From Roseitalea porphyridii (GTDB lineage Bacteria > Pseudomonadota > Alphaproteobacteria > Rhizobiales > Rhizobiaceae), in NCBI RefSeq assembly GCF_004331955.1, contig NZ_CP036532.1, positions 682,001-746,000 of the forward strand: DNA of 64,000 bases. The letters are read 5' to 3'. The notes under the pieces were generated by a model. The model was given only the letters and a program-made list of their open reading frames with translations. It was not told the origin of the DNA and made no database searches. The first letter of the stretch is position 1; the number at the start of each line of letters is the position of its first letter. This document shows positions 47,457 through 50,076 of this stretch, piece by piece. The position numbers and the translations under genes are program-made.

Positions 47457-48677
47457 ATGGTCCGCCTCGCCATAGTGATGATTGTCTTCATGTTCGGCGC
47501 CTCGGGGTCCGCCCATGCCGACCTTCAGGGCCAGTACGAGACGTTCCTCGAGAACACGATCTGGCCGAAGGCGCGGAGCGCGGGCGTATCTCGCGCCACC
47601 TTCGACCGCGCCATGGGCCAGAAGCGCCTGAACACCGACATCCCCGGCCTCGTCCGACCCGGCCAGTCGACGCCGCAGCGCATCCGCCAGGCCGAATTCT
47701 CCGCGCCCGCACGATATTTCAATGAGAACAATGTCGGCGCCATCGTCGCGCAGGGTCGCCGGCTCGCCGCCCAGCACGCCTCCATGCTCGCCGCGCTCGA
47801 ACGCCGCTACGGTGTGCCGGGCCGCATCATCCTCGCCATCTGGGGCCGCGAGAGCGCCTTCGGCCGCGTCGACATTCCGCATGACGCGTTCCAGGTGCTC
47901 GGCACCAAGGCTTTCATGTCGACCCGACCCGAACTCTTCCAGGGCGAACTCGTCGCCGCGCTTGCGATGGTCGAACGCGGCATGGCGACGCCGGACCAGA
48001 TGAAGTCGTCCTGGGCCGGCGCGCTCGGCCAGCCGCAGTTCCTGCCGACCTCCTATCTCGAACACGCCGTCGACGTGGACGGCGACCGCAGGCCGAACAT
48101 CTGGACCTCGGTGCCCGACACGCTCGGCTCGATCGCCGCCTACCTGAACCATTTCGGCTGGCAGCCCGGCCGCGACTGGGGCTACGAGGTGACCGTGCCC
48201 GCCGAAATCTCGTGCAGTTTCGAGGGACCGGACCAGGGCCTGAAGATTCGCGACTGGGAGGCGATGGGCATCGCCCGCATTTCCGGCCGACCCTTTCCCG
48301 ATGCCGAACGCGACCGGGAAGGCTACCTCCTGATGCCCGCCGGGCGCAGCGGGCCGGCCTTCATCGTCACGCCCAACTTCTACGTGCTCAAGCAGTACAA
48401 TGAGAGCGACCTTTACGCCCTGTTCGTCGGCCATGCCGCCGACCGCATCGAATGGGGGACGGGGCGGTTCAAGGCGTCGTGGGGCCGGGTCGACGCGCTC
48501 TACCGGTCCGAGATCGCGGCGATGCAGCGCGTGCTGGAAGGCAAGGGCTACGATGTCGGCGGCGCCGACGGACTGCCCGGCTTCAAGACGCGCCGCTCGA
48601 TCGGTGACTGGCAGAAGAGGAATGGCCAGGCGCCGACCTGCTTCCCCTCCAAGGCCCTTGTCGGCGCGATCCGCTGA
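47457..48677 (+). CDS. lytic murein transglycosylase (MltB type) with peptidoglycan-binding domain
   Basis: Cleaves glycan strands to 1,6-anhydromuropeptides in the periplasm. The protein has 406 residues. The signal peptide is MVRLAIVMIVFMFGASGSAHA. The SLT_2 domain spans about 25-320 with catalytic Glu132 in WGRESAFGRVD, WAGALGQPQFLPTSY and the AYLNHFGWQPGRDWG segment. The C-terminal peptidoglycan-binding domain reads IAAMQRVLEGKGYDVGGADG. No lipobox, so a soluble periplasmic enzyme. GGAG precedes the ATG. Confidence 0.93.
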   Translation: MVRLAIVMIVFMFGASGSAHADLQGQYETFLENTIWPKARSAGVSRATFDRAMGQKRLNTDIPGLVRPGQSTPQRIRQAEFSAPARYFNENNVGAIVAQGRRLAAQHASMLAALERRYGVPGRIILAIWGRESAFGRVDIPHDAFQVLGTKAFMSTRPELFQGELVAALAMVERGMATPDQMKSSWAGALGQPQFLPTSYLEHAVDVDGDRRPNIWTSVPDTLGSIAAYLNHFGWQPGRDWGYEVTVPAEISCSFEGPDQGLKIRDWEAMGIARISGRPFPDAERDREGYLLMPAGRSGPAFIVTPNFYVLKQYNESDLYALFVGHAADRIEWGTGRFKASWGRVDALYRSEIAAMQRVLEGKGYDVGGADGLPGFKTRRSIGDWQKRNGQAPTCFPSKALVGAIR

Positions 48678-48777: not shown

Positions 48778-48791
48778 TTGACGCTGATCAA
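48778..48791. promoter_or_regulatory. FNR/FixK-like box TTGAC-N4-ATCAA
   Basis: TTGAC (48778-48782), GCTG, ATCAA (48787-48791) fits the TTGAY-N4-RTCAA consensus of FNR/FixK/NnrR-type activators. Its centre lies 43 bp upstream of the ATG of the small Cys-rich protein, close to the -41.5 position of class II activation. Confidence 0.55.
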
Positions 48792-48827
48792 AGTGAACCC
48801 GGCCGGGCAGTCCCAGTCTGCATTCCC

Positions 48828-49100
48828 ATGTCCAATCGCCTCGTCCATGCCGACAACCAGATCTGTTACCGCGCGCTGTGCGGCATGGAGGCCGAGCGCT
48901 CCGGGTCCGCGGACCGCCGGGCCGGCATAATCGCGCTGGCGATGCGTGCGCTGCGCCGCGTTTCGCGCAAGAAGGGCTGCTGCATCGACTGTCCCTATAG
49001 CGGCCGGTGCGCCGAGCCCGATGCCGACCTCGTCGTCGATGCCGCGCTGGTCGACACGCATGTGACGCTCAACCCGGTTCGTCCCCGATCAGCCCACTGA
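48828..49100 (+). CDS. small Cys-rich protein of unknown function
   Basis: A 90-residue protein with no recognised domain. It has six cysteines: C13, C18, C51, C52, C55 and C61, the last four in KKGCCIDCPYSGRC, which looks like a metal or Fe-S binding knuckle. The middle is a short basic helix. No signal peptide. Third-position GC is high, so it reads as a real gene. There is no clear ribosome site before the ATG. An FNR-like box just upstream suggests oxygen-related control. Its 3' end overlaps the convergent XRE gene by 32 bp. Confidence 0.68.
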   Translation: MSNRLVHADNQICYRALCGMEAERSGSADRRAGIIALAMRALRRVSRKKGCCIDCPYSGRCAEPDADLVVDAALVDTHVTLNPVRPRSAH

Positions 49101-49941
49101 TCACCCGTCCCGCCTCGTGCGGCCGGACGGTCGCCGACCGGATGAGCTGGTCGAAATGCCGCGTCAGCGCGCCGATCGCCTCCTTGGCGTTCAGCACCAG
49201 GTACATGTCGCCCATATAGACCGCCGCGCGGGTCTGCCCGAACACGGTGTAGGGCGCAGAAAAGGTCTTGCGGCCGTCGAACAGGAAGATGCGCAGGCCC
49301 GGATAGAGGTCGTCCGCCAGCCTCGCCATCTGCGCGATCTGCGCGCGGCGCGCTTCGGCCTCGAGCGTCGCCCAGGGCCCCGAACCTTCCGCCAGCGCCT
49401 GCAGCGTCTGAAGCGGCATACACACTTCGGTGTCGTTTTCCGGCTTGCGGCTGTAGGCGAGCCGTTCGCGCGCATCGTCGATCTGGTATTCGACCGAAGG
49501 CTTTGTCGCGCGCGTCTCGAACGCGATCACCGCTTCGGTGCGCAGGAAGTCGGGGATCGTGGCGGGGACGTAGCGGATCTTCATGCCGGCCGCGTCCTGG
49601 TGCCATCGCCTGAGTGCGGCGTCGTTGCCCGCGTCCTGCGCTTCCTCCAGTTCGAGCGCCGGCTTGATCTCGGCCGACACGCCCTCGTCCTGGCTGATGC
49701 CGAGCAGCCAGTCCAGGCTCACCCCTTGCGTGGAGGCGATCCGGATCAGCGTGTCCGCACGCGGCAGGCGCGTCGTCTCGCCCGAGAGCAGTTGCGACAG
49801 CGCCGACCGGTCGAGCCCGACAGCGGCGGCAAAGCGCGAACGGTTCATGCCCGACCGGTCGAGCAGCCGCGCCAGACGCTCGCGGAACAGGCGGGACGCG
49901 TCACGCTTGTCGATCCGCTCCGTTGTTTCGTTGATGGTCAT
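49069..49941 (-). CDS. XRE-family transcriptional regulator
   Basis: A 290-residue protein. The N-terminal helix-turn-helix at about 20-85 reads LARLLDRSGMNRSRFAAAVG, LDRSALSQLLSG, LPRADTLIRIASTQGVSLDW. The long C-terminal part (about 95-290) has no obvious metal site and may sense a ligand. The start at 49941 (MTINETTERI) is preferred; a frame to 49977 exists. It is divergent from the fatty acid desaturase and probably controls it. Confidence 0.83.
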   Translation of the reverse strand: MTINETTERIDKRDASRLFRERLARLLDRSGMNRSRFAAAVGLDRSALSQLLSGETTRLPRADTLIRIASTQGVSLDWLLGISQDEGVSAEIKPALELEEAQDAGNDAALRRWHQDAAGMKIRYVPATIPDFLRTEAVIAFETRATKPSVEYQIDDARERLAYSRKPENDTEVCMPLQTLQALAEGSGPWATLEAEARRAQIAQMARLADDLYPGLRIFLFDGRKTFSAPYTVFGQTRAAVYMGDMYLVLNAKEAIGALTRHFDQLIRSATVRPHEAGRVISGLIGDEPG

Positions 49942-50076
49942 TTGCCGCAAATGCACCTGCGTGTTGATATTACACAACAGATGCGTGATTTGATGACCAA
50001 ACGCAATGTTCAGTGCGCATTCCCTCCTTCATCCCGCTGGCCCGCCCTGACATAACCCTGTCAGGGGGTAGGATTC
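49942..50076. promoter_or_regulatory. XRE-desaturase divergent spacer with repeats and an inverted repeat
   Basis: Between the two starts the word TGCGTG occurs twice (49969, overlapping the alternative XRE start region, and 49982), each followed by a TTGAT-like tract. TTGATATTACACAA resembles an FNR box with two mismatches in its second half. CCCTGACA (50045-50052) and TGTCAGGG (50059-50066) form an 8-bp inverted repeat with a 6-bp spacer right at the desaturase ribosome site. It could be an operator or an RNA hairpin. Confidence 0.45.

Follow-up and report, generated by a model that had tools for sequence, protein, structure and literature searches.

The cluster ligands of E. coli FNR are spaced as C-x2-C-x5-C, and a -10 hexamer lying 21-22 bp past an FNR-type box is the arrangement expected when a class II site is centred at -41.5. 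In Alphaproteobacteria, cco, haem genes, and peroxidase are named as FnrN/FixK targets in excerpts of PMC4999443, and according to excerpts of PMC4634722, repression accompanies an FnrL site that lies 42 bp upstream of the start codon of flbT in Rhodobacter capsulatus. For leaderless transcription, excerpts of PMC3616915 give 171 leaderless mRNAs in Sinorhizobium meliloti. Within open-licence PMC text, no match linked FnrL with leaderless mRNA, and the term "FNR box" is absent among the matches listed from the literature on leaderless mRNAs and transcription start sites.

The locus described here would tie an oxygen-sensing activator to leaderless translation by spacing, the box-hexamer distance of the regulon putting the predicted start on the AUG. 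It lies in a window of 64,000 nucleotides, the whole stretch of DNA that was analyzed, taken from the genome of a marine bacterium, 3.54 Mb in one contig (G000), which we compared to four other genomes of the genus (G001-G004). An FNR/FnrL-type box, TTGACGCTGATCAA (48778..48791, + strand), is an exact match to TTGAYN4RTCAA. Its centre is 43.5 bp before the ATG of an ORF encoding a small Cys-rich protein of 90 aa (48828..49100 including the stop codon, + strand), which agrees closely with the 43 bp of the original prediction. The gene, the box, the regulon, and the class II geometry are supported by computation; activation, a leaderless start, metal binding, and a role are inferred. When oxygen falls, an FnrL-like protein would occupy TTGACGCTGATCAA, around -41.5, and recruit RNA polymerase to a weak -10 hexamer, CAGTCT, in the manner of a class II activator. 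The transcript would begin at the AUG or within 2 nt of it, and would be translated without a Shine-Dalgarno sequence (SD). The five invariant cysteines of the product would most likely bind metal, probably as an oxygen-labile Fe-S cluster but possibly zinc, and the protein would serve the low-oxygen state in an accessory or regulatory capacity. FnrL class II activation of a leaderless mRNA for a metal-binding low-oxygen factor is the best explanation as a whole, and we hold it with somewhat better than even confidence.

Gene and protein family

That the ORF is a real gene is practically certain. It has an orthologue in all five genus genomes searched, with 49-57% identity to the window protein, and dN/dS of 0.20-0.52 in all 10 pairs indicates purifying selection. 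The block consisting of the ORF, a helix-turn-helix (HTH) regulator gene, a desaturase gene, and a PhnD-like gene is kept in all four relatives, and a scan of named genomes found the four genus loci in Oceaniradius stylonematis, two Roseitalea sp., and a Phyllobacteriaceae MAG, which places the genus as Roseitalea/Oceaniradius. The open frame, whose conservation in relatives had been set as a test at the outset, is thus kept in five of five genomes, within the genus. The start is also well defined: no in-frame ATG, GTG, or TTG occurs upstream of the ATG at 48828 before the preceding stop, making it the first possible start codon. In G000, G001, and G002, M1 is the sole in-frame start before M20, and residues 6-13 are almost all invariant.

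Upstream, the neighbor of the ORF is a gene for an MltB-type lytic transglycosylase (mltB, 47457-48677, + strand). Downstream lies a convergent HTH_3 regulator gene (49069..49977, - strand), outside the claimed promoter unit, and the ORF is the only downstream gene that TTGACGCTGATCAA can serve. The 3' ends of the ORF and the HTH gene overlap tail to tail (49069-49100 in the window), by 32 bp in G000 and G003 and by 26 bp in G001, G002, and G004. Judging from this arrangement, the overlap may permit antisense interference.

Homologue searches first scored 13 to 21 candidates per genome, a limit at which very divergent short relatives may be missed. When the single protein was searched against 101 relatives, the five genus members were found together with a match in G059 (E 3.6e-4), rejected as a relative because its translation lacks the Cys motif. 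The genus profile A1 matched 17 of 394 family genomes at E ≤0.01 (the five genus members and 12 weak matches), and in 240 class genomes it found the own genome and, in G821, a match with two in-frame stops. Profile A3, applied to 397 order genomes, found the own genome and G497. Of 14 weak matches that were translated, L021, in G053, was the only one to resemble a possible relative. L024 was left out of this judgment, as a contig end truncates it and puts its translation there out of register. Another, L022, was set aside because its frame holds a stop and its other strand reads, by eye, like an AraC-type gene. The G497 match, likewise not retained, is by eye rich in Cys and carries a hydrophobic segment, and it lies just past the apparent end of feoB. 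At L063:1300-1680, we observed a Cys-rich frame with a hydrophobic segment and C-x2-C-x5-C directly after an apparent feoB end.

The G053 candidate has 84 aa and C-x2-C-x5-C, and its profile E of 4.1e-4 per genome amounts to ~0.16 expected by chance in 394 genomes; on this sequence evidence, it is doubtful as a relative outside the genus. An exact box at its locus was rejected as support for FNR control of the ORF homologue, as it fits a divergent bchE-like gene. TAGGAT is found at 22 bp on the bchE-like side and no such hexamer on the ORF side, the bchE-like ATG is 61.5 bp away (L037:2301-2369), and the G053 ORF has a strong SD. This geometry and the strong SD mean that the G053 box is not evidence for FNR control of the ORF. 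A search of 121 genomes with the G053 protein gave 14 other rows, seven of which were read and not accepted (L075 being near a contig end) and seven of which have in-frame stops. No convincing relative outside the genus was therefore found in the family, order, and class searches, bar the doubtful G053 protein: the homologue search proposed with the original prediction succeeded in all five genus genomes and elsewhere produced just this match.

Profile searches of Pfam, NCBIfam, PHROGs, and PDB found no family above cut-off. The best Pfam score, for one of the five members, was 14 bits to FeoB_associated (PF12669), against a cut-off of 27. NCBIfam gave a single match (E 0.15), far under its cut-off, PHROGs matched one of five members to one nameless family (E 0.0019), and PDB gave a single match (E 1.3). 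By the measure of these searches, the protein is a genus-specific orphan matching no known family.

Cysteines and metal binding

Among the residues invariant in the five orthologues are C13 (codon 48864-48866, + strand), C18 (48879-48881, + strand), C52, C55, C61, D76, and H78. The codons of the C52-x2-C55-x5-C61 triad occupy 48981..49010 (+ strand). The CCxxC-x5-C motif of the original prediction is present as C51-C52-x2-C55-x5-C61. Because C51 varies among the orthologues, the conserved motif reduces to C-x2-C-x5-C, joined by C13 and C18, two residues that the prediction omitted. With C13 and C18 besides the triad, there are ligands enough for one cluster or zinc site. An AlphaFold2 model, from one run on the five sequences, shows helices at 2-26 and 29-49 and a loose Cys-bearing tail, and its pLDDT of 55 is too poor for a fold search or for placing the cysteines. 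The small protein is probably helical and cytoplasmic. The pattern of cysteines makes binding of a metal or cluster moderately probable, and, should metal be bound, we lean slightly toward Fe-S rather than zinc. In the low-oxygen state, the protein may have an accessory or regulatory function that involves binding metal.

Alternatively, the protein might bind zinc or nothing and be a structural adaptor or regulator, e.g., via the convergent HTH gene, not an Fe-S protein, with the overlap perhaps giving antisense interference. C-x2-C pairs fit zinc too, H78 and D76 would be consistent with it, and the 26- or 32-bp overlap occurs in all five genomes. On the other hand, low-oxygen control and the E. 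coli FNR-like spacing would tend to favor an oxygen-labile cluster. We consider this alternative conceivable but unlikely, and retain a metal-binding, tentatively Fe-S, protein as the preferred reading.

FnrL regulon and promoter geometry

The exact motif TTGAYN4RTCAA occurs at 25 sites in the 3.54-Mb genome, compared to three for the reversed pattern. This genome encodes an FNR-type protein (L080) with C-x2-C-x7-C; among NCBIfam models, it scores closest to FnrL, with 213.7 bits, short of the cut-off of 300 for that model. A regulator of FnrL type, with its own cysteines, is more likely on this basis than a cysteine-less FixK. Of the FNR/FixK-type box first proposed, the FNR part is strengthened by the genome-wide count, and FnrL is a likelier regulator than FixK. 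Other boxes of G000 precede ccoN, bchE, and genes for a HemG-like flavodoxin, a CCP/MauG-type peroxidase, HSP20, a PPDK-like protein, DUF465, and DUF6455. At bchE (L112), the box (G000:C1:3410663) is 62.5 bp before the ATG, with a hexamer at 21 or 22 bp. A gene for a TsoY-family (seleno)protein (L105:2071-3285) has a box (G000:C1:2658057) 63.5 bp before its ATG. We consider it very likely that the ORF is FnrL-controlled in this species.

When.A...T hexamers were counted past the 25 boxes in both directions (50 stretches), nine were found at offset 21 and 12 at offset 22, compared to zero to five at any other offset between 8 and 45. In front of the ORF, CAGTCT (48814..48819, + strand) starts 22 bp past the box, i.e., on this regulon-wide peak, and stops 8 bp short of the ATG. 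It is a weak -10. Class II spacing (-41.5) and the hexamer together predict a transcription start at 48826..48828 (+ strand), 0-2 nt before the A of the ATG; provided that this hexamer is used, the 8-bp gap means that the transcript starts at or beside the AUG.

We tabulated hexamer-to-start distances for 20 gene rows representing 19 of the 25 sites, and examined the remaining six sites with all possible starts. A hexamer is present at 21 or 22 bp in 14 of the 20 rows, the PPDK-like row having none. Gaps from hexamer to chosen start in the other 13 rows are 23, 25, 27, 28, 28, 28, 28/29, 30, 33, 35, 43, 45, and 74 bp, a comparison that hinges on start choice because three more sites have alternative starts ≤10 bp from the hexamer: 1735016 (ATG, gap 6), 1740961 (GTG, gap 9), and 3080325 (ATG, gap 4).

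A similarly short gap is found at a gene for an ABC-transporter ATPase of 242 aa (PF00005, 127 bits; G000:C1:2353247-2353972, L102:1242-1967, - strand), which has an exact box at 2354006, TAGGGT at 21 bp, and a gap of 6 to the ATG. Its orthologues (L133 and L134) have an exact box with TAGCGT at 21 bp and a gap of 6 in G003, and an exact box with TACCTT at 22 bp and a gap of 6 in G002, gaps that were computed from start offsets of -18 and -21. This arrangement is not kept in the 62%-identical G001 match, and G004 has no match at E 1e-80. The ATPase gene is a second candidate for an FnrL-driven leaderless gene. Since it shares the short gap, the ORF is one of at least two FnrL-box genes with leaderless geometry, and not unique.

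Leaderless start and conservation of the promoter

No SD is visible before the ORF in G000, as was originally noted, and no GGAGG-like core was seen by eye before the ATG in the five genus genomes. For the 19 nt upstream of the ORF that end 3 nt short of the ATG, the anti-SD duplex energy is -2.1 kcal/mol, compared to -5.1 to -10.3 kcal/mol for 10 other box targets of the genome. This measure separates SD-led from SD-less starts only roughly, because random 19-mers at 66% GC span a broad range (median -3.8, 80% within -8.5 to -0.8). Among the orthologues, G003 has -1.5, while the values for G002 (-5.9), G004 (-6.1), and G001 (-7.9) fall inside the range of both SD-led targets and random sequence.

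The box is exact in three of the five genus genomes (G000, G002, and G004). Both G002 and G004 have CAGACT at 22 bp, with gaps of 7 and 6, respectively. G003 has CCGACGGTTATCAA, with two mismatches, and CATAAT at 22 bp with a gap of 9, and G001 has TTGACACTTCTCGA, also with two mismatches, and no such hexamer. These two degenerate boxes, and the missing hexamer of G001, count against the best explanation. Nevertheless, an exact box is kept before DUF6455 in G001 and G003 (L041 and L040), which indicates that an FnrL-type regulon is present in both. Upstream of the box, G000 and G003 have mltB, whereas G001, G002, and G004 have a gene for a 138-aa protein that reads like an XRE regulator. As G002 and G004 have a different upstream gene and yet an exact box, the box goes with the ORF and not with the upstream neighbor.

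Regulon, hexamer spacing, and sister-species geometry have together strengthened the reading of FNR-type control and a leaderless mRNA. The class II part of the original prediction, with its near-ATG start, is supported by a hexamer at the right spacing that is kept in sister species, but is tempered by a box that is exact in only three of five genomes. The geometry predicts a 5' end at the AUG, so that an FnrL-dependent leaderless mRNA is well supported as a prediction. We judge a leaderless mRNA, or a leader of ≤3 nt, to be likely, and the more so because the ABC ATPase gene repeats the geometry in G000, G002, and G003.

A functional box might also act otherwise: FnrL might repress, or the promoter might start upstream of or overlap the box, giving an mRNA with a leader but no strong SD. 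The flbT site of R. capsulatus, 42 bp before the start codon and linked to repression in excerpts of PMC4634722, means that the sign of the FnrL effect on the ORF could go either way, CAGTCT is weak, and the anti-SD energies in G002, G004, and G001 are middling. Against this, CAGTCT sits exactly at the regulon-wide peak spacing, and G002 and G004 share the box, the spacing, and the short gap. This leaves the alternative rather improbable and class II activation of a leaderless mRNA the preferred reading.

Counted over the window by itself, the motif does not significantly exceed chance: five matches with ≤1 mismatch were found, where shuffled sequences average 2.37 and 13 of 100 shuffles reach five; TTGACGCTGATCAA is the sole exact match. 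At three chance sites per 3.54 Mb, any particular 100 bp would contain an exact site by chance ~1 time in 10,000. That the box arose by chance, with the ORF encoding a genus-specific small protein of unrelated expression outside FnrL control, would be in line with this window result, with the degenerate boxes of G001 and G003, and with the three reversed-pattern sites as the genome-wide chance level, but is very improbable given the 1-in-10,000 figure and a box kept in G002 and G004 with a different upstream gene and a matching hexamer.

The DUF6455 parallel

In G000, the start of the DUF6455 gene (L039, C1:1548846-1549076, - strand) is preceded by an exact box at a distance of 58.5 bp. A search of 61 genomes found 24 DUF6455 matches in 20 of them, of which 22 were examined, two being too near contig ends. 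In the best 14 of these 22 loci (E ≤7.6e-16; L039-L052, five from the genus), the box is exact in 12 and has one mismatch in two, and it lies 58-91 bp ahead of the chosen start. The other eight comprise five without a box and three with a box 173-265 bp away. Among 289 class genomes, 14 have matches, and 16 of the 17 new loci were examined: in three (L114-L116), an exact box lies 59-80 bp ahead of the match, seven have a box 159-320 bp away (one with a mismatch and one being the box of a tandem neighbor), and six have none. The background rate across these class-level loci amounts to 0.006 exact sites per 100 bp. To judge from their upstream sequences, DUF6455 genes with high scores seem to belong to FNR-type regulons, whereas most low-scoring ones do not. 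One alphaproteobacterium has three tandem DUF6455 genes behind a single FNR box (L114, L130, and L127; G792:C1:890952-891741).

Membership of the 90-aa protein in DUF6455 was considered and rejected: none of the five orthologues matches the Pfam model at E ≤10 (HMMER filters on), and profile comparison gives a probability of 4.6%, over just 23 columns around the cysteines. Homology between the two is not supported. What the two share is a wider pattern, that of small C-x2-C-x5-C proteins of unknown function (the orphan and DUF6455) in alphaproteobacterial FNR-type regulons, of which we found no description in open-licence PMC text. Going much further, we speculate, as a long shot, that a new small Fe-S family made from leaderless mRNAs while FnrL is active could be a second oxygen sensor, losing its C-x2-C-x5-C cluster, spaced like the E. 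coli FNR triad, as oxygen returns and so resetting or tuning FnrL or the HTH regulator. FnrL-driven leaderless starts, whose geometry is found here at the ORF and the ABC ATPase gene, could then constitute a translational class of their own within the low-oxygen regulon.

Comparison with known systems

With the FnrL/FnrN class II promoters of Alphaproteobacteria, the ORF shares the TTGAYN4RTCAA palindrome and a hexamer at 21-22 bp. It differs in its 8 bp from hexamer to ATG, against ≥23 bp in most other G000 targets at their chosen starts, a short distance that it has in common with the ABC ATPase gene. Like the leaderless mRNAs of Hyphomicrobiales, it has an AUG at the predicted 5' end and no visible SD, but its start is predicted by an FnrL class II site, whereas an FNR/FixK link for known leaderless starts was not found in the excerpts consulted. 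On the side of the protein, the Cys-rich membrane protein FeoB_associated (PF12669) resembles the ORF product weakly around the Cys motif, but the neighbors of the ORF are not feo genes. The C-x2-C-x5-C spacing is common to the product and E. coli FNR, and differs from the C-x2-C-x7-C of the local FnrL-like protein, but the product is a 90-residue orphan without a CRP fold or HTH. DUF6455 (PF20056) is likewise small, has C-x2-C-x5-C, and has an FNR box upstream of its high-scoring members, but it has a fourth Cys ~17 residues downstream of the triad where the ORF product instead has two Cys upstream. We regard the ORF as a lineage-specific addition to a regulon of known type; its tight promoter-AUG arrangement is seen again at least once within the genus.
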